Source: a virus. From it: a stretch of DNA of 35,359 bases. The stretch covers positions 1 through 35,359 of IMG/VR virus record IMGVR_UViG_3300003332_000009; one strand, given 5' to 3'. Positions 1 through 35,359 of this stretch are shown here, in pieces (position 1 is the stretch's first letter; every line of letters begins with the position of its first letter). The position numbers and the translations under genes were made by a program. The notes below the pieces were generated by a model that was not told the origin of the DNA, did not search any database, and was given only the letters and a program-made list of their open reading frames with translations.

Positions 1-1
1 C

Positions 2-250
2 ACCGGAGCGGACCTCACCAGAGCGAACCTCACCAGAGCGAACCTCACCAGAGCGGACCTCACCGGAGCGGACCTCTACGGAGCGGACCTCTACGGAGCG
101 AACCTAACCGGAGCGGACCTCTACGGAGCGAACCTCACCAGAGCGGACCTCTACGGAGCGGACCTCACCAGAGCGGACCTTACTAGAGCGAACCTCACCA
201 GAGCGGACCTCACCGGAGCGAACCTCACCAGAGCGGACCTCACCGGAGCG
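2..250 (+). repeat. 15-bp tandem coding repeat, left part
   Basis: Sixteen full 15-base units (8-247) plus partial units at both sides. The unit is gcg-[g/a]ac-ctc-[a/t]ac or acc-[a/g]ga, giving A-D/N-L-T/Y-R/G. Apart from rare changes (cta near 109, ctt-act near 179-184) the units are identical at the DNA level, even at silent sites, which points to recent expansion or homogenisation. The same array continues at 34916-35359. Confidence 0.97.
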
Positions 251-625
251 AATATAGATATATACGGTAAGCATTTCAAAAGGATTTACGCGTACCACAG
301 TAATTGCCCGGAAGAAGGCGATTTTATAGCCTGGAAAAAAGTTTACGAAAATGGAAATGATATAATCTTAAAATTGCTCGTTACCGGTGCTAGAGTTTCT
401 CCTTTATCTGGCAGGAAATGCCGAACAAATGAAGTCAAAGTGCTGGCCGCGTTTAAAGGCAGAAAGGAGCGTAAAACCGGTGTATTCACTTCTGGTTATA
501 ACGCAAATTTTGAATACAGGATAGGCGAAACAATTACAACGCCTGATTTTGATCCCAATCCATTGGTTGAATGTTCCGCTGGTATTCATTTTTTCATAAC
601 TCGGCAAGAGGCTGAAGACTGGTAG
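2..625 (+). CDS. Pentapeptide-repeat protein with DUF5758-like C-terminal domain (3' part, start lies at 34841)
   Basis: The frame is open from base 2, has no start in the window and ends at the TAG at 623-625. It begins inside a pentapeptide array (16 complete A[D/N]L[T/Y][R/G] units, then ANIDIYG). A globular C-terminal domain of about 120 residues follows, with landmarks [26 protein letters not shown] and [18 protein letters not shown]. These match the DUF5758 domain that often follows phage pentapeptide repeats (family recalled, not searched). The array should form a right-handed quadrilateral beta-helix; its partner is unknown. The gene at 34841 runs off the other end in the same kind of array. 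A one-base overlap of the ends restores one frame of about 380 codons. It is the last gene of the rightward early block. Confidence 0.85.
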
Positions 626-3351: not shown

Positions 3352-3506
3352 AAGAGCCAATACTGAAGACTAGAGACTTCATCATCGCCGAAAGTCCGTT
3401 CGATAAAAATATTTACTGGATTCAGCGCAACGATGGAGAGGGAACAGAGTTTTCAGCGGAGCAGCTTAACGAATTACTTGAGATATTCTTTGAGGAGGTG
3501 ATGTAA
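3348..3506 (+). CDS. Small acidic hypothetical protein before the terminase
   Basis: 52 residues with a GTG start overlapping the previous TGA. Sequence landmarks are LKTRDFIIAESPFDKNIYWI and EQLNELLEIFFEEVM, an acidic helical C-terminus. The TAA at 3504-3506 overlaps the ATG of the small terminase gene (TAATG), so the two are coupled. The GAGGAGGTG at the gene end also serves as the terminase ribosome site. Function unknown. Confidence 0.65.
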   Translation: MKEPILKTRDFIIAESPFDKNIYWIQRNDGEGTEFSAEQLNELLEIFFEEVM

Positions 3507-4087
3507 TGGCGGCCTTAAAAAATAAAAAGCACGAAAGGTTCTGCCGCGAATACGTAATCGACCACAACGGAACACAGGCAGCAATACGGGCAAAGTACAG
3601 CAAGAAGACAGCAAACGAGCAAGCAGGCAGACTGTTAGTGAATGTTAGTATATGCGAAAGAATAAAAGAACTAGACGACAAGAAGACAGACGAATTAGAA
3701 ATTACTCAGGAAAGAATCCTCAAGGAATACGCCAAACTAGCTTTCACCAACTCTGATGACCTAATGCTTTACACTGATGAATATATCATGTCGGAGCCAG
3801 AGACAACGGACGAAGAAACCGGAGAGCTGATCCCGGCACAATTCAAAAAGGTGAGCAAGGCATATTTAAAACCGCATGATGACCTCACCGAGATTCAGAA
3901 AGGAGTAATTCAAGAGATCAGGGAAACGCAAACAGGTGTGGCGATTAAACTCTATGACAAGAAATCAGCCCTTGACTCCCTGGCAAAGATTAAAGGAATG
4001 TTCGTGGATAAGCACGAGGTATCAGGCACAGACGGCCAGCCAATACAAACGATAACGAGGGTTATAGTTGATCCAAAAGGCGAGTAA
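3506..4087 (+). CDS. terS: Terminase small subunit
   Basis: 193 residues. The N-terminus KKHERFCREYVIDHNGTQAA followed by IRAKYSKKTANEQAGRLL is the HTH of the Terminase_2 family, which recognises the pac or cos site. The middle region carries the typical QERILKEYAKLAFTN segment, and a C-terminal part (KLYDKKSALDSLAKIKGMF) resembles the oligomerisation end of PBSX-type small subunits. GAGGAGG precedes the ATG. It sits directly upstream of the large subunit, as expected for a packaging motor. Confidence 0.93.
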   Translation: MAALKNKKHERFCREYVIDHNGTQAAIRAKYSKKTANEQAGRLLVNVSICERIKELDDKKTDELEITQERILKEYAKLAFTNSDDLMLYTDEYIMSEPETTDEETGELIPAQFKKVSKAYLKPHDDLTEIQKGVIQEIRETQTGVAIKLYDKKSALDSLAKIKGMFVDKHEVSGTDGQPIQTITRVIVDPKGE

Positions 4088-4140: not shown

Positions 4141-5343
4141 ATGAACCTGAAGATTAAAACCCCACGGTGGGCAAAGCCGTTTTTACATCCGGCCAGGTAT
4201 AAAGGAGTACACGGCGGTAGGGGTAGCGGCAAGTCAACATTTTTTGCTGGTGAAGTGGTTCTTGATGCGTACCAGGGTAAAAATATAGTATGCGTCAGGG
4301 AAATACAACGTACACTGGCCCAATCAGCCAAAAAACTGATAGAAACGAAGATTGAAGAGTACGGGATGGGCAAGGCTTTTGATATACAGAGGGACCAAAT
4401 AAAAGGCCCACACGGAAATCTTATAATATTTAACGGGCTTAGAGATCATAACGCTGAATCAATCAAATCACTCGAAGGGTATGACATAGCATGGATTGAA
4501 GAAGCCCAAAGTATGAGCCAACGATCACTTGATTTATTAAGGCCGACAATCAGAAAGGAATGTTCTGAAATATGGGCAAGCTGGAATCCAAGATTCGAGA
4601 CAGACCCGATAGATGTATTGTTGAGAGGTGAGAACCCTCCTCCAGATGCGACAGTGGTAGAATGTAACTATTCAGATAATAAATGGTTCCCCGACGTACT
4701 CAAAAAAGAGTTGGAATATGATAAACGAAGAGACCCGGAGAAGTACGCTCATGTCTGGCTGGGCGGATATCTTAGAAATTCAGAGGCAAGAGTTTTTAGA
4801 AATTGGACTATTGAAGAGTTTAATACTCCCTCCGATGCTTCCTTTAGATTGGGCGCTGACTGGGGATTTTCAGTCGACCCTACAGTCCTTACAAGATGTT
4901 ATATTGAAGGGCGAAAGCTATTTATCGATTATGAAGCATATGAGGTAGGCTGTGAGATTGAAAACATACCGTTACTTTTTCAGACTATACCAGAGTCAGA
5001 AAAATGGCCTATCGTTGCTGACAACAATCGGCCCGATACTATTGACTACATGCAAAGACACGGATTCCCGAAAATCTACGGAGCTGCTAAAGGGAAAGGA
5101 AGTATCGAGGACGGAATCGAATGGCTGAAGAACTATGATATAATCGTACATCCCCGGTGCAAGCACACAATCGACGAATTGACAATGTACAGTTATAAGG
5201 TTGACAAAGATACCGGAAAAGTACTACCAGTGTTAAAAGACAAAGACAATCATGTTATAGACTCGCTCAGGTATGCCAACGAAGGATACCGGAGAGCAAG
5301 GCACACTGAAGCACAACCAATCGAATTTGATTCAGAGTGGTAA
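4141..5343 (+). CDS. terL: Terminase large subunit (PBSX type)
   Basis: 400 residues. ATPase domain: Walker A GGRGSGKST (25-33), Walker B with catalytic Glu in DIAWIEEA (115-122), and ASWNP (146-150). RNase H-like nuclease: first Asp in GADWGF (D240), second in IVADNN (D293), third in HVIDSLRYA (D374). It therefore cuts and pumps DNA at the portal. A TAA at 4135-4137 forces the start at ATG 4141 or later. Almost no Shine-Dalgarno is visible, which suggests low expression or coupling through the 53-base gap after terS. Length fits the family. Confidence 0.96.
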   Translation: MNLKIKTPRWAKPFLHPARYKGVHGGRGSGKSTFFAGEVVLDAYQGKNIVCVREIQRTLAQSAKKLIETKIEEYGMGKAFDIQRDQIKGPHGNLIIFNGLRDHNAESIKSLEGYDIAWIEEAQSMSQRSLDLLRPTIRKECSEIWASWNPRFETDPIDVLLRGENPPPDATVVECNYSDNKWFPDVLKKELEYDKRRDPEKYAHVWLGGYLRNSEARVFRNWTIEEFNTPSDASFRLGADWGFSVDPTVLTRCYIEGRKLFIDYEAYEVGCEIENIPLLFQTIPESEKWPIVADNNRPDTIDYMQRHGFPKIYGAAKGKGSIEDGIEWLKNYDIIVHPRCKHTIDELTMYSYKVDKDTGKVLPVLKDKDNHVIDSLRYANEGYRRARHTEAQPIEFDSEW

Positions 5344-5581: not shown

Positions 5582-7786
5582 ATGGACGATATTATAAATG
5601 AAGACTTTGCAAAAGCGCTGAAACGGTGGGAGATATGCGAGAAGGCGGAGCGTGAGAACCGGGAGCTATCCGTCAAAGACCGCCTGTTTCTAGCTGCAGA
5701 GGGCGGAATGTGGGGCGATGAAGATGAAGAGAAACGCAAGGATAGACCCCGCTTTCAAATTGACAGAATCAGCCCGGCAAAAGATCAGATAGTCGGCAAC
5801 CAGCTGCAAGAAGTTATAGGCCCATCAGTATCACCTGGTGTTGGAGGTGACGAAGAGACAGCAGAGATATTCGAAGGGGTTATCCGTCGCATTGAAAATG
5901 AGTCCAATGCTAACGATATCTACGATCATAGTTTTGATGAAACCGTGACCGGTGGTTACGGTGGTTGGAGAATCCTGACCCGCAAAGACGGAGACAATCC
6001 ATTCGAAGAGAATCAAACTCCCTACCTGAAGAAAATCGATAGTGCGGATACAAGTCTGTATTTTGGGCCAGAGTCTGAGAACTATGACAAGTCAGACGCC
6101 CCGGACGCGTTCCTGGTGACCTATATGGTCATGGAGACATTCAGGGAAAAATACCCGCAAGCAACGATCACAGATTTTTCCGACACAATTTATCAATCAT
6201 CCACATGGTTTGACGGAGATAAGATAAGGATTGCAGAATATTGGCGTAAAGTCCCCTGCACAGTCCGATATGGCAAAATGTCAGACGGTAGCACATTAAA
6301 CCTGGATGAAGAGCAAGCAGCGCTGGACGAATTAGCGCTCAGGGGAATAGTAGTAGTTGAGGAAAAAGAAGCCAAATCCCACAAAATCGAAATGCGGATC
6401 ATGAACGGTGCTGAATTTCTGACAGAGCCTCAACCATGGGCTGGTAAATATATCCCGCTGGTACCTCAGTTTGGCAAACAGGCGATAGTTGACGGCAAGC
6501 GGTTTGTTTGGGGACTGGTCCGAAAGGCCAGAGACCCACAAGAAGTTTACAATTACGCGGTGTCAAGCAATGTTGAAGCTGCAGCCATGGTTCCAAAAGA
6601 TCCATTTTGGGAAACACCGGCGATGCGGTCAGGCCATGAAGCCGATAGAAAAGAATTCAATACCAGGAACATCCCGTTTCAGCTTTATAACTCTGACCCG
6701 GGTCATCCTGGGCCACCTTCCAGGTCAGGCGCACCATCTGTCCAACAGGCGTTAATCCAGCAGCAACAAACAGCGAGTCAGGACATTTATGCTACCACTG
6801 GTATCTATCCGCCTGCTATGGGCAACGGACCCGAGCTTAAAAGCGGGGTGGCTATTAACCGTGAGACAGAAAAAGGCGATAGGGGTTCTTTTATCTTTCA
6901 GCGGAATCTCCGGCGCTCAATCCAATACACATACACAATCCTGATTGATCTAATTCCCAGGGTAATGGATACCGAGCGAGTGGAGAAGATCGAGTTTCAA
7001 GACGGCACAACTGAAGATGCTGAAATAAACAAGGTTGTAATCGACACAGACACAGGGGAAAAAGTCATTATCAACAACCTGTCTGCCGGCAAGTACATTG
7101 CAAGAGCTAAGTCAGGCGCTTCATTTATGACCAAAAAAGCCGAAACGGTTGAGCAGCTGAAAGAACTGGCCAATGGCTCCGATGTTATCCAGAGGCTTGG
7201 AATGGATATTGTAGTCAAGAACATGGAGCTCAACGAAGGCGACGAACTCCACAAGCGGCTCAGAAAGGAGATGATAAATCAAGGCGTGGTTGATCCGACT
7301 GATAAGGAGAAAGAAGAAATGGGTATTGGCCAGCCAGCTCCACCTGATCCAATGCAAGAGGAACTGATTAAGAATCTGGCAGCTCAGACCGATGAATCAA
7401 ACATGAAAGTTGAAGCGATGATGGCGGATATCCAGAAACGGGACGCTGAGACTCAGAAACTGATAATGGACACGAACAAATCAGCCATGGACGCTTTCGC
7501 CACGATGACGGATGCGTTAATCAAGAAAGTCGGTGCAGGTGTTCCTCTCGATGAAAATGACGTTGATATGGCCGACGGTCAATCAGCATTGGTACAGGAA
7601 TCTCAGGTCGATGTAATGGAAAACCAAGAGGTGGCCGGCTCTCTGCCTATGAACGCAAAGCAGCCACAAGGTCAGATTCAACCAGGTACTGAGATACCGC
7701 CACAAATTGACATGCCGGTACAGGACCCAACTGGACCGATTGGTCCGCAACCAGGAGTAGATATACCAGCAGGATTTGAGGAATAA
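5582..7786 (+). CDS. Portal protein (P22 gp1-like)
   Basis: 734 residues, close to P22 gp1 (725). Family landmarks include RPRFQIDRISPAKDQIVGNQ near residue 60 (wing start), the DETVTGGYGGWRILTR segment near 120, and the stem/crown part with IYPPAMGNGPELKSGVAINR. The C-terminal third is helical and Gln/Asp/Pro-rich, like the barrel region of P22-type portals. It forms the dodecameric ring at one capsid vertex that docks terminase and later the gp4/gp10-like neck. Upstream AAGGAAGGC is the ribosome site. Confidence 0.93.
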   Translation: MDDIINEDFAKALKRWEICEKAERENRELSVKDRLFLAAEGGMWGDEDEEKRKDRPRFQIDRISPAKDQIVGNQLQEVIGPSVSPGVGGDEETAEIFEGVIRRIENESNANDIYDHSFDETVTGGYGGWRILTRKDGDNPFEENQTPYLKKIDSADTSLYFGPESENYDKSDAPDAFLVTYMVMETFREKYPQATITDFSDTIYQSSTWFDGDKIRIAEYWRKVPCTVRYGKMSDGSTLNLDEEQAALDELALRGIVVVEEKEAKSHKIEMRIMNGAEFLTEPQPWAGKYIPLVPQFGKQAIVDGKRFVWGLVRKARDPQEVYNYAVSSNVEAAAMVPKDPFWETPAMRSGHEADRKEFNTRNIPFQLYNSDPGHPGPPSRSGAPSVQQALIQQQQTASQDIYATTGIYPPAMGNGPELKSGVAINRETEKGDRGSFIFQRNLRRSIQYTYTILIDLIPRVMDTERVEKIEFQDGTTEDAEINKVVIDTDTGEKVIINNLSAGKYIARAKSGASFMTKKAETVEQLKELANGSDVIQRLGMDIVVKNMELNEGDELHKRLRKEMINQGVVDPTDKEKEEMGIGQPAPPDPMQEELIKNLAAQTDESNMKVEAMMADIQKRDAETQKLIMDTNKSAMDAFATMTDALIKKVGAGVPLDENDVDMADGQSALVQESQVDVMENQEVAGSLPMNAKQPQGQIQPGTEIPPQIDMPVQDPTGPIGPQPGVDIPAGFEE

Positions 7787-20599: not shown

Positions 20600-21904
20600 A
20601 TGAAAAAGTATGTTTTGATGTTGCTGGCATTGTTTTTAATCGGATGTACAGAAGTTATCAAAGAAAGCAGTGATTCAGACACAACTGAAGATGCTCCAAT
20701 TGTCCACACAATTGCCGGTAAGCTACAAAAAGGCCGGTGCCTGAAGGATGCCAGAGTACAATCATGGCCATTGATCAACGGAACAATGAGCCAATCAGGT
20801 GCGCAATTTATCGAGTTTACCGGTGACGATGGGTCCTATAGTATGGACGTTCAAGGCGATTCTGAATACGTTTTTACGTACTTTAAAGGCTATTGTGACG
20901 ATGAAGTAAACGGTGGGTCAGGATGGCAGGAACTATACGGAATCAGAAAAGTATCAGACCCAATTTCAAACACGAATCCACTAACGAAAGTTTCTTATCA
21001 TGTGGCCAAGGACTTATTTGCTGACGGTTTTGGAACGGTCGAAGCCTGCCTGGCAGAATCTGAGAGGCTGACAACTGAGTTTATGTCAATGCCGAAAATT
21101 TCCGAGAGGTTCGGATCAATGAACCTTGAAAAAGACGGCGAGCAACACCGAGAACTTTCCCTTGCAAGTGCAGCTATTCTCTACGGTCGGACCGATGTTG
21201 AGGCCGGTGATTTCATGATTGAGATAGCAACCGCGATTATGAATGGCGACACGGCCTTAAAAGATGAAATTAGGGCAGTGTATGATGAATTGCCTCTGAT
21301 GACCGTAAAAAGCAATCTAGAGGCCAGCTATGCAAGCGTGGGAGTGGATATTGACGTTCCGAAACTATGGAGAATTCACGCGCCTGATTATTACGCTGAC
21401 TTATTGGAAAGAACCCCCGCTGTCCAAACAACCTACAATCTGGACGATACAACAAGCTGCAGTTTCGACCAGTCAGATTTTAATACTTTTGCGGTCCCGT
21501 ACACTTTCCAGGCGGGAATCGAATCAACGCGGTATATAGCCTTAAACGTTGCCAAAGATATTGACGTATCAATCTGGACGGTAGCGACTCATGTGGGTGG
21601 ATATCCAGCACCGGGAATTAAAATTCTGGACTTAACGAGGCTGAGGGAAAATCTACTTGCGGTTCCTGGCCTGTCATATAACGGCATGTTGGGTGATAAC
21701 CACGGGTTAAAAACAGGCGATGAGGTTTATATTGTATTTAGAAAAGACGCTGATTTCGTGCTGTCTAAATCATGCGGTGGTGACCGGCTTTACACAGCTT
21801 ACACACTGGCAAGCGATAACGAGGGTTTGACCTGGATAGGTGACGGTAACAACGCGGACCGGTTCTTTTATTTCACTGGGTTGATTTTAAAAGGGTTTAA
21901 CTGA
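20600..21904 (+). CDS. Lipoprotein, accessory (moron-like) gene
   Basis: 434 residues with a signal peptide MKKYVLMLLALFLIGC whose lipobox is L-I-G-C (Cys16). The mature start, TEVIKESSDSDTTEDAP, is a flexible acidic linker. Positions 2-3 after Cys are Glu-Val, not Asp, so outer-membrane sorting is possible. The early mature part looks like a small beta domain (IAGKLQKGRCLKDARVQSWP) of the carboxypeptidase-regulatory/surface type; the rest is unrecognised. It has its own consensus promoter and lies between tail and lysis genes, typical for genes altering the host surface. A role in superinfection exclusion is an inference. Confidence 0.8.
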   Translation: MKKYVLMLLALFLIGCTEVIKESSDSDTTEDAPIVHTIAGKLQKGRCLKDARVQSWPLINGTMSQSGAQFIEFTGDDGSYSMDVQGDSEYVFTYFKGYCDDEVNGGSGWQELYGIRKVSDPISNTNPLTKVSYHVAKDLFADGFGTVEACLAESERLTTEFMSMPKISERFGSMNLEKDGEQHRELSLASAAILYGRTDVEAGDFMIEIATAIMNGDTALKDEIRAVYDELPLMTVKSNLEASYASVGVDIDVPKLWRIHAPDYYADLLERTPAVQTTYNLDDTTSCSFDQSDFNTFAVPYTFQAGIESTRYIALNVAKDIDVSIWTVATHVGGYPAPGIKILDLTRLRENLLAVPGLSYNGMLGDNHGLKTGDEVYIVFRKDADFVLSKSCGGDRLYTAYTLASDNEGLTWIGDGNNADRFFYFTGLILKGFN

Positions 21905-22869: not shown

Positions 22870-23328
22870 TCATTGTGTGTGTTTCGACATTTCTTTATCA
22901 ATTGCGCTCTGCATGATTACCTCAACCACTTCGCCGCGGTGCTTGTTTTTAAACTGGTCCATTTTGAATAATTCCACCCAAAGCTGCTTGTCGACCCTTA
23001 GTTGTATGGTTGTTAATTTGCCACAAGGCGAAAACCTTACTTTCTTTTTTCGCCGCCTCTTGTTGTTTGCTTGTTCTTTTATGGTTGCCCACCTACAATT
23101 TTTAGGGCAGTAATTCCCGTCATTGTTTATTCTGTCGATTGACAACCCTGGCGGCCTTTTTCCCATATCAAGTAAGAAAGTATCGAAGCTATCCCACCTT
23201 TCACAGATAGATATCCCCCTCCCTCCATAGTATTTGTAACCACTATTTTTTTTATTATTGCACCTTTGCCTCATATTAGCCCATGTTTTGTACTCACTTT
23301 TGTGTAGTTTGCGGTTTGTATTTTTCAT
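22870..23328 (-). CDS. HNH-like (homing-type) nuclease with ribbon-helix-helix-like tail
   Basis: 152 residues. Residues 10-90 carry the phage HNH/AP2-associated pattern: YKTWANMRQRC, YYGGRGISICERW (33-45), then SIDRINNDGNYCPKNCRWAT (63-82) and EQANN. Such proteins nick DNA and can spread by homing. The C-terminal part (106-145, TTIQLRVDKQLWVELFKMDQ ...) looks like a ribbon-helix-helix segment, similar to the protein encoded just upstream at 23325-23498. The ATG overlaps the upstream TGA (ATGA). It sits in the only minus-strand operon of the window. Confidence 0.75.
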   Translation of the reverse strand: MKNTNRKLHKSEYKTWANMRQRCNNKKNSGYKYYGGRGISICERWDSFDTFLLDMGKRPPGLSIDRINNDGNYCPKNCRWATIKEQANNKRRRKKKVRFSPCGKLTTIQLRVDKQLWVELFKMDQFKNKHRGEVVEVIMQSAIDKEMSKHTQ

Positions 23329-28609: not shown

Positions 28610-28819
28610 ATGAGAATAACAATAGAAACAGCCCAATCCGGGATTGCTGAGTTTAGGCAAAAAAACGGGTACACCCTGGATAAACTTTCAGAAAAAACCG
28701 GTGTTGCAAAATCTACATTGATAAAAATCGAGGCTGGAAGTGTAAAGCCACAGGCGACAACCGTCTATAAACTTAACCAGCACATTAAAACGGTTGAGCC
28801 ATGCACAGAGGCTATGTAA
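28610..28819 (+). CDS. XRE-type HTH regulator (Cro-like size)
   Basis: 69 residues from ATG 28610 (81 from ATG 28574). The HTH spans IAEFRQKNGYTLDKLSEKTG, then VAKSTLIKIEAGSVKPQATT, the XRE/Cro signature with the IExGxxxPxxxT tail. Being only one domain long, it could act as Cro or as a regulator of the replication operon and its promoter at 28535. No larger CI-like repressor was found in the window. The gene end overlaps the replication initiator start by 19 bases. Confidence 0.75.
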   Translation: MRITIETAQSGIAEFRQKNGYTLDKLSEKTGVAKSTLIKIEAGSVKPQATTVYKLNQHIKTVEPCTEAM

Positions 28820-29580
28820 GGGATTACAGGAAAGGGATAGAACATCCTCTTTTTTCGAGACCTCTTATATGGCATTTCTGGACATATTGCAGGCTAAGGG
28901 CAAACCATAAAGAAGTCTTGATTGACTTTAATGGTCTACCTCTCAAACTCGAAAGGGGATGTTTCGTCATGAGCGTAGGAAGCGCATCAAAGGATACTGG
29001 ATTGACCACCCAAAATATCAGGACGGCAATCAAGATTCTCTCTTCTCACGGAATGATCGAAAAATCAACAAGCGAAGTAACAAAGCAAGCGACTATTGTA
29101 AGGGTGCTAAAATACGACGTTTACCAGGATTTAAAAAAGGATGCTAACAAGGTAACTAACGAACAGCTAACAAAGTGCCAACAAGGTGCTAACAAAGTGC
29201 TAACAACAGATAATAATGTTAATAATGTTGAAAATGAAGAAAAGAACTATTCCGAAGACTCTAACGAGTTTCGGTTGGCAGTTTTTCTTTTAAACAATAT
29301 TAGGAAACGGAAACCGGATTTCAAAATACCCAACCTACAAACATGGTCAAAGCAATCTGATTATATTTTAAGGATTGATAGGAGAGATATCGGCGAGGTT
29401 AAAAAGGTAGTTATGTGGTGTCAGGCCGATGAATTCTGGCAGGACAATATCTTATCTACTGCAAAACTCAGAAAACAGTATGACCAACTTGTTTTGAAGA
29501 TGAATAAGGAAACAGCTAACGGAATACAATCAAAAAAGAGCGCAACATTAACAGCTATACCGGGGGCGATCAGTGTTTAA
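28801..29580 (+). CDS. Replication initiator (winged-helix, iteron-carrying)
   Basis: 259 residues. N-terminal domain (1-110): WHFWTYCRLRANHKEVLIDF, LKLERGCFVMSVGSASKDTG, LTTQNIRTAIKILSSHGMIE, a winged helix like phage O-type or DnaD-like replication proteins. Residues 115-137 are encoded by 11-bp DNA repeats and are low-complexity (Asn, Lys, Val, Thr). C-terminal part (160-245) has YILRIDRRDIGEVKKVVMWC and FWQDNILSTAKLRKQYDQL, a typical helicase-loading domain. Lambda O likewise holds its origin inside its gene. It overlaps the primase-helicase start by eight bases. Confidence 0.82.
   Translation: MHRGYVRDYRKGIEHPLFSRPLIWHFWTYCRLRANHKEVLIDFNGLPLKLERGCFVMSVGSASKDTGLTTQNIRTAIKILSSHGMIEKSTSEVTKQATIVRVLKYDVYQDLKKDANKVTNEQLTKCQQGANKVLTTDNNVNNVENEEKNYSEDSNEFRLAVFLLNNIRKRKPDFKIPNLQTWSKQSDYILRIDRRDIGEVKKVVMWCQADEFWQDNILSTAKLRKQYDQLVLKMNKETANGIQSKKSATLTAIPGAISV
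29143..29209 (+). repeat. Six 11-bp iterons inside the initiator gene, putative replication origin
   Basis: gctaacaaggt (29143), a weaker aactaacgaac (29154), then four head-to-tail units gctaacaaagt (29166), gccaacaaggt (29177), gctaacaaagt (29188), gctaacaacag (29199). The 11-base period is one helical turn and not a multiple of three, so the repetition is not a protein repeat. An AT-rich stretch follows (29210-29245), fitting an unwinding element. Confidence 0.7.
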
Positions 29581-33672: not shown

Positions 33673-33795
33673 ATGAAAACATTAACCTGCAAGCGGTGTA
33701 AACATGAATGGTATCCAAGAAAGCCAGAAAAACCCAAAACCTGTCCAAAGTGTAAAAGTCCTTACTGGGACAAAGAAAGGCGGAAAAAAGTATAA
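33673..33795 (+). CDS. Tiny zinc-ribbon protein
   Basis: 40 residues, MKTLTCKRCKHEWYPRKPEK, PKTCPKCKSPYWDKERRKKV. The C-x2-C-x3-W-x3-P ... TCPKCKSPYWD pattern is a well-known phage/archaeal microprotein ribbon. Strong GGGGGAG ribosome site. The basic tail suggests nucleic-acid contact. Its last 92 bases overlap the N-terminal frame of the following HNH-like gene. Confidence 0.75.
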   Translation: MKTLTCKRCKHEWYPRKPEKPKTCPKCKSPYWDKERRKKV

Positions 33796-34411
33796 TTATA
33801 AACATGGATGGTCGAGAACTAGATTATATAGAACATGGAACGCAATGAAACAGAGATGCACAAACAAAAACTCTTCGTGTTACAAAAATTATGGTGGTAA
33901 GGGTGTTTACGTTTGTGATGAGTGGAAAAATTCTTTTGTTGTCTTTAAGGAATGGGCAATAAAAAATGGGTACCAGGAAAATTTAGAAATAGATAGAATT
34001 TTGAGTAGTGGAAACTATGAGCCGTTAAATTGTAGGTTTATAACAAAAAGTGAAAACGTAAAAAACTTATGGAGGATAAAAACAATTGAAGACGCGGCAA
34101 TTGTGGCGATGAAAGAAAAACCCTTACATTGGATTAACCCTCTTAAAGTAAATATAGCGAGAGATGTGTTTGAAAGTTTGTTTAATTTAGGGTTGTGTAG
34201 GCGTAGGATAGACCCTTATAATAAATGGGTTTATCAATACCAAATAACAACACCTGAAACACAAAATATAATCGATAAATACCGTTACGATAACCCAACC
34301 AGCAGCCTTTACGAATACTCAGATTTTCACGGCCGCTACCTTTTTGCATGCTCCAATCCATTTAACCTATGCGAGTCCGAATTGATCGCTGAATACGAGG
34401 CTAAGCAATGA
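33704..34411 (+). CDS. HNH-like nuclease with YGGKG motif
   Basis: 235 residues from ATG 33704, which lies inside the preceding zinc-ribbon gene. Homology by eye starts about residue 30: KHGWSRTRLYRTWNAMKQRC (33-52), YGGKGVYVCDEW (63-74), EIDRILSSGNYEPLNCRFIT (95-114). It shares this layout with the minus-strand nuclease at 22870. The C-terminal half (130-235) is unrelated and may recognise DNA. Gene start is unusual; the true start may be weak or the gene may have landed here by homing. Overlaps the next start by four bases. Confidence 0.75.
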   Translation: MNGIQESQKNPKPVQSVKVLTGTKKGGKKYNYKHGWSRTRLYRTWNAMKQRCTNKNSSCYKNYGGKGVYVCDEWKNSFVVFKEWAIKNGYQENLEIDRILSSGNYEPLNCRFITKSENVKNLWRIKTIEDAAIVAMKEKPLHWINPLKVNIARDVFESLFNLGLCRRRIDPYNKWVYQYQITTPETQNIIDKYRYDNPTSSLYEYSDFHGRYLFACSNPFNLCESELIAEYEAKQ

Positions 34412-34840: not shown

Positions 34841-35359
34841 ATGGATAAAAAAAAGTTAGAAAAAATACTTGATTTGCACAAAAAATGGTTAAGGGGAGAT
34901 AAAGGCGGGAATAGAGCGGACCTCTACGGAGCGGACCTAACCGGAGCGGACCTCTACGGAGCGGACCTCACCAGAGCGAACCTCACCAGAGCGGACCTCA
35001 CCGGAGCGAACCTCACCAGAGCGAACCTCACCGGAGCGAACCTCACCAGAGCGGACCTCACCAGAGCGAACCTCACCAGAGCGAACCTCACCAGAGCGGA
35101 CCTCACCGGAGCGGACCTCTACGGAGCGGACCTCACCAGAGCGAACCTCACCAGAGCGGACCTCTACGGAGCGAACCTCACCAGAGCGGACCTCTACGGA
35201 GCGGACCTCACCAGAGCGGACCTCACCGGAGCGAACCTCACCAGAGCGAACTTCACCGGAGCGAACCTCACCGGAGCGGACCTCACCAGAGCGAACCTCA
35301 CCAGAGCGAACCTCACCAGAGCGGACCTCACCGGAGCGGACCTCTACGGAGCGGACCTC
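34841..35359 (+). CDS. Pentapeptide-repeat protein, 5' part (continues at 2-625)
   Basis: The ATG at 34841 follows a GGATAAGGGG ribosome site. MDKKKLEKILDLHKKWLRGD, then GGNR, forms a short N-terminal helix that usually caps pentapeptide proteins. From 34916 the repeat begins: 29 full units and ADL at the edge. The reading frame reaches the last base at codon 173. A one-base overlap with base 1 completes the next unit as ADLTG and leads into the left part; direct joining would shift the frame. The full protein would have 46 units and about 380 residues. Confidence 0.85.
   Translation, partial: MDKKKLEKILDLHKKWLRGDKGGNRADLYGADLTGADLYGADLTRANLTRADLTGANLTRANLTGANLTRADLTRANLTRANLTRADLTGADLYGADLTRANLTRADLYGANLTRADLYGADLTRADLTGANLTRANFTGANLTGADLTRANLTRANLTRADLTGADLYGADL
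34916..35359 (+). repeat. 15-bp tandem coding repeat, right part
   Basis: 29 complete 15-base units plus nine bases. Unit types seen: [25 protein letters not shown] and one ANFTG (aac-ttc at 35249-35254). The codon choice is nearly constant. Tyr occurs only in the unit with Asp and Gly. Part of the array that continues at 2-250. Confidence 0.97.

Follow-up and report, generated by a model that had tools for sequence, protein, structure and literature searches.

The stretch of DNA analysed here (the window, G000), an IMG/VR virus record of 35,359 bases, very probably represents all or nearly all of the genome of a tailed phage of the P22/Sf6-like kind, closing as a circle of 35,268 bp once its 91-base duplicated end is counted a single time. 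Specifically, bases 1–91 are an exact match to bases 35269–35359 in a prefix/suffix comparison, and joining the ends on this overlap gives the closed genome. Because the ends are identical inside one repetitive gene, the assembler appears to have made its cut at this place in a genome that is circular or circularly permuted. This reading is well supported from the sequence, which is compatible with both forms, and neither window end is a physical DNA terminus. With closure, two truncated reading frames become a single defined gene, and what was a fragment becomes a closed phage genome; the result helps to correct the pentapeptide gene and is otherwise ordinary in kind.

Identical window ends and the joined gene

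The list of open reading frames contains a frame from 34841 that is open at the right end of the window and a frame ending at 625 that is open at the left end, from base 2, just as the original prediction had described. Likewise, its observation that both edges lie in the same 15-bp repeat is borne out by Tandem Repeats Finder, which places 15-bp arrays at 34913–35359 and 1–250. The features of the overlap and of the joined gene are as follows.

1–91, plus strand: left copy of the 91-base terminal overlap, an exact match to 35269–35359, counted once in the closed genome
35269–35359, plus strand: right copy of the 91-base terminal overlap, an exact match to 1–91
34841–34915, plus strand: start of the pentapeptide gene, N-terminal cap MDKKKLEKILDLHKKWLRGDKGGNR, 25 aa; a similar cap precedes the array in loci L004, L010, L021 and others, and in the tail of contig G006
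34916–35359, plus strand: 5′ part of the pentapeptide array, in 15-bp units (Pfam PF00805, 195 bits)
35049–35134, plus strand: copy 1 of the longest internal exact repeat, 86 bp; copy 2 lies 225 bp on, at 35274–35359 (equal to 6–91), and ends at the right edge of the window
35154–35223, plus strand: tail copy of a 70-bp tract repeated exactly at 111–180; an end overlap of 91 is required for the spacing to be 225 bp
92–247, plus strand: 3′ part of the array after removal of the overlap; with 34916–35359 it makes 600 bases, or 40 canonical units
248–262, plus strand: degenerate last unit ANIDI, from the translation of the joined gene
296–613, plus strand: DUF5758 domain of the same gene, whose stop is at 623–625 (Pfam PF19062, profile positions 2–105 of 105, 79.8 bits against a curated cut-off of 26.9; AlphaFold pLDDT 91.5 for the domain alone)

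Joined on 91 bases, the two frames form one gene of 350 aa, consisting of the N-terminal cap, 40 canonical pentapeptides, the degenerate ANIDI unit and the DUF5758 domain. The original prediction had instead proposed that an overlap of a single base restores the frame. It does so, yielding 380 aa with 47 units (46 canonical plus ANIDI), and since 91 equals 6×15+1 the joins at 1 and at 91 share a frame, which is why that analysis worked; the real exact overlap of the ends is nonetheless 91 bases, and six of the 46 units that it counted are the overlap counted twice, leaving 40 plus one degenerate ANIDI as the supported number. A match of 1 base is the only other exact prefix/suffix match of the window ends, and a join on it keeps the frame yet breaks the 225-bp duplication considered below (longest run 16, as compared with 70 at 91). 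Joining the ends without any overlap is excluded because the frame meets a stop, as had been anticipated, although the first one is a TAG at 184–186 rather than at 266–268.

The identity of the ends goes beyond what low complexity alone would give. The window contains the 91-mer twice, at its two ends only, and among the other 91-mers of the closed array none of 274,576 pairs is identical. An end overlap of at least 91 was reached in 1 of 20,000 shuffles of unit order, a figure to be read with the caution that such shuffles understate long repeats where arrays grow by block duplication, and that the window itself has an 86-bp internal repeat. Furthermore, the array contains a higher-order duplication at 225 bp, or 15 units, with exact tracts of 47 and 86 bp at this spacing that both lie entirely within the tail, and this duplication stays in phase across the junction. 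Specifically, when 15 assumed overlaps (1–211) were compared, the longest exact run at period 225 was 70 at an overlap of 91, 44 at 121 and at most 36 elsewhere, a comparison that draws on bases beyond the 91-base overlap; a run of 70 bases was reached in 137 of 50,000 shuffles (head units) and in 159 of 50,000. A plain identity test of the 225-bp period was modest (433 of 20,000), with an offset of 240 scoring equally high within the tail.

Phage type and the position of the cut

The assignment to the P22/Sf6-like phages (Caudoviricetes) comes from the terminase, portal, scaffold, coat, connector and DNA-transfer families, all of which match that group. The packaging and portal genes are these.

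3506–4087, plus strand: terminase small subunit, a packaging gene downstream of the junction (PF03592, 108 bits)
4141–5343, plus strand: terminase large subunit (TerL), Sf6 gp2-like (match to ‘Gene 2 protein’ 4idh, E 2e-45)
5582–7786, plus strand: portal protein, P22/Sf6-like (match to ‘Gene 3 protein’ 7sfs, E 6e-54, and to P22-type portals)

The terminase and portal are of the Sf6/P22 type, 4idh and 7sfs being chains from Sf6, and the scaffold, major head, Ad3, Hc3, ejection and transfer proteins assigned by PHROGs follow the P22-type gene order. Megablast of window positions 1–25000 against 50,697 phage records returned no close named relative. The best TerL match in that record set, at 64%, is to MW202867, a circular record whose gene order is similar to that of the window's head-protein block and in which replication genes lead into the terminase, as they do in the closed window. 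P22/Sf6-like phages package by headful, and for this reason circularly permuted linear virion DNA is the most likely form of the genome: the virion would carry linear DNA with terminal redundancy, circularly permuted through headful packaging, and reads from it would then map to a circle. At 20600–21904 an ORF of 434 aa, which by eye has a lipoprotein-like signal (LFLIGC), directly precedes the ORF at 21904 that matches phrog_1501.

It is informative to examine where exactly the cut falls. The last base of the window is also the last base of the 86-bp repeat, and the bases that follow the two copies differ (A at 35135, T at 92). Because the right edge sits on this exact repeat boundary, the cut looks repeat-driven; its position looks like that expected from an assembler stopping at a repeat branch, not from a physical end or a random cut. 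Mechanistically, a de Bruijn assembler may have stopped within the array, at the edge of the 86-bp repeat, so that each end kept about one k-mer (91 bases), in which case 91 would be the k-mer length of the assembler. The authors of CheckV describe end repeats that pile up at odd lengths matching assembler k-mers, their source being circular templates or concatemers (PMC8116208). The window resembles the DTR contigs of that paper in having an identical odd-length stretch at both ends, from what would be a circular or concatemeric template, but it differs from the accompanying legend, in which breaks fall at random places, in that its own break falls at the edge of an internal repeat; likewise, the example lengths named are 55, 77 and 99, and 91 is not one of them (PMC8116208).

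Relatives and alternative readings

A scan of IMG/VR with the DUF5758 part of the gene yielded 24 loci. In several of them (for example L004, L005, L010, L012, L013 and L021), an N-terminal cap (LK.IL..H.KWL, with variations), an array and DUF5758 lie in a single ORF, and as this is the order obtained by joining the window ends, the intact relatives support closure as one gene. A second contig, G006 (41,201 bp; L103/L104), carries a cap and array at its tail and an array and DUF5758 at its head, and its ends overlap by 93 bp with one mismatch, a result reached in 1 of 20,000 shuffles; G007 (L112) is the same phage from another sample (99.98% over 5,991 bp), with an array that is cut at a different point. 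Contig G015 also has gene halves at both ends, but its best overlaps of 74–104 bp carry 3–4 mismatches and are not sharp, and it was not treated as a case of end overlap. The core of the original prediction, a circular or circularly permuted molecule cut by the assembler within one gene, is therefore upheld by the overlap, by the 225-bp duplication that runs through the junction, by the intact relatives and by the second contig.

Among named phages, DUF5758 matches were found in 148 of 50,697 records, 144 of which are mycobacteriophages. All 10 of the mycobacteriophage genes that were translated read through from pentapeptides into DUF5758. In Mycobacterium phage YassJohnny, for example, SEA_YASSJOHNNY_54 resembles the window gene in that a single ORF holds a pentapeptide region and, after it, DUF5758-like sequence. 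Arrays of the mycobacteriophages are degenerate, and each of the ten genes has 279 or 281 aa, whereas the array of the window is longer and nearly uniform in its DNA. DUF5758 appeared in none of the papers searched, and among the papers listed for pentapeptide repeats and phages no title or abstract opening dealt with assembly cuts in such phage genes.

Contigs of the relatives break in the array far more often than expected. Starts within the array were found in 5 of 24 relatives as compared with 0.27 expected from contig and array lengths, a count that leaves out the window and assumes the array lengths of L008 and L018; without L008, which is the same phage as L007, and without L002, the count is 4 of 22 (P 5.5e-5). 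Two loci broken in the gene outside the array, L002 (G001) and L018 (G017), were not counted as array breaks, and L003 (G002) has the whole gene near a contig end. This excess suggests that short-read virus collections probably split pentapeptide–DUF5758 genes and count too few of them. It agrees with an independent study in which pentapeptide repeats turned up 26 times more often in long reads than they did in assemblies (PMC9238414).

The junction with the window's own neighbours was seen in no relative among 73 loci compared, and DUF5758 was absent from all 47 of these that were brought in by the terminase, as well as from 17 further loci. The terminase, connector and DUF5758 loci have too few common neighbours for synteny of the junction. 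The locus nearest to the window's junction is L024, where DUF5758 is accompanied within 9 kb by primase-helicase-like and TerL-like genes, on the other strand; L010, also a DUF5758 locus, has a weak primase-helicase match, and a scan with the primase-helicase found no relative. An exact 26-base pattern from the pentapeptide gene had no match in viral contigs. Two of the 24 DUF5758 loci, L004 and L016, have, some kb away, an HNH gene like the one at 33704 in the window. In the window itself, the ORFs at 22870–23328 (minus strand) and 33704–34411 (plus strand) resemble related HNH-type endonucleases by eye and lie on opposite strands; the second of them has no Pfam match.

These observations bear on three other readings of the window. 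It is highly improbable that the ends carry two separate pentapeptide genes of a linear fragment, with repeats held in common by descent or homogenisation and a molecule that does not close here. Relatives with more than one pentapeptide reading frame do exist, G021 being an example, but the tail of the window has a cap and lacks DUF5758 while its head has DUF5758 and lacks a cap, the two halves complementing each other to the arrangement of the intact relatives, and coincidence would have to explain both the exact 91-base match of the ends and the 225-bp duplication that stays in phase. Likewise highly improbable is a linear virion genome whose true ends carry the 91 bases as a fixed direct repeat. 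Such a genome would indeed show an exact direct repeat at both ends; it would, however, split a conserved gene, the edge of the repeat is set by the internal 86-bp repeat, and the terminase and portal are of the type whose group packages by headful.

The remaining alternative accepts the circle and concerns the length of the array: the 91-mer could recur in the genome or the population, through a repeated 225-bp block or through length variants, so that units at the junction are missing. We regard this as a genuine possibility, although not the one that we favour. The cut lies exactly on the 86-bp repeat boundary, where a branch would stop an assembler, and the single mismatch in the end overlap of G006 is what alleles or extra copies would be expected to produce. 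Furthermore, in the related pair L005:3540-3879 and L013:4792-4936, the arrays differ in length by 195 bp, or 13 units, with identities in matched pieces of 95.4% before the array and 93.5% after it. Against this, no 91-mer is repeated in the closed array, and the assembled data need no extra copy. The suggestion in the original prediction that the true copy number is larger, for example through collapse of a 225-bp block, is hence possible, but nothing in the data requires more than the closed circle with its 40 canonical units.

Growth of the array and the encoded protein

Codon choice in the array of the closed genome sets it apart from the other genes of the window. Alanine is encoded by GCG in 40 of 40 canonical units as compared with 21% of Ala codons in 31 other window ORFs, leucine by CTC in 36 of 39 cases as compared with 8% elsewhere in the window, and G+C is 65% in the array versus 44%. 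Because array codons this uniform are unlike the rest of the genome, a recent expansion of DNA units, as opposed to codon-by-codon selection, would account for them, and the base composition and codons, together with the 225-bp block duplication, point to an array (34916–35359 plus 92–247) that probably expanded recently at the DNA level. Growth probably proceeded by recent duplication of DNA blocks, both of 15-bp units and of the 225-bp block of 15 units. Among the 19 arrays with 8 or more units, a set without L002 and the G006 tail, codon sharing is 93.9% within arrays versus 37.2% between them, a comparison confounded by genome codon use, for which the window's own genes are the cleaner control. 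A minus-strand ORF of 140 aa with EVRSG repeats also runs through the array at 34937–35359, a by-product of the repeat.

One can imagine that the pentapeptide–DUF5758 gene, here and in related phages, is a length-contingency locus, in which the array lengthens and shortens by recombination of whole 15-bp units or larger blocks, so that the length of the solenoid changes between a conserved cap and a conserved DUF5758. We consider this unlikely, but if it were true, the contig break at the edge of the 86-bp repeat would be a trace of length alleles coexisting within a single population, and solenoids of differing length would adjust how the protein binds a host target.

The translated array consists of tandem A(D/N)LXX pentapeptides that match PF00805, and AlphaFold models it as a right-handed beta-solenoid (block means of 93–97 pLDDT over residues 1–70) that matches solved pentapeptide proteins in Foldseek. 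DUF5758, modelled alone, is a compact beta domain. The gene product would then begin with an N-terminal cap, continue as a right-handed beta-solenoid of some 40 pentapeptides and close at its C terminus with the DUF5758 beta domain. For DUF5758 alone, searches of the PDB by sequence gave no confident match, and comparisons of its fold gave none either (best Foldseek E 0.62; best VIA-align Z 3.5, to Sm-like proteins); these null matches indicate neither a new fold nor a function. The gyrase-acting proteins MfpA, Qnr and AlbG are like the window protein in the solenoid matched by the model, which is all that they have in common, whereas the C-terminal domain of the window protein is DUF5758, with no sequence match in the PDB. 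The charge of the array is near neutral, with 24 acidic and 20 basic among 205 residues, and this balance does not favour DNA mimicry. Only tentatively, the solenoid protein may act as a rigid module for binding or spacing within a phage protein that is not structural. Apart from the array, the window has a short 11/33-bp tandem repeat, TGCTAACAAAG, at 29142–29206, inside the ORF at 28801–29580.
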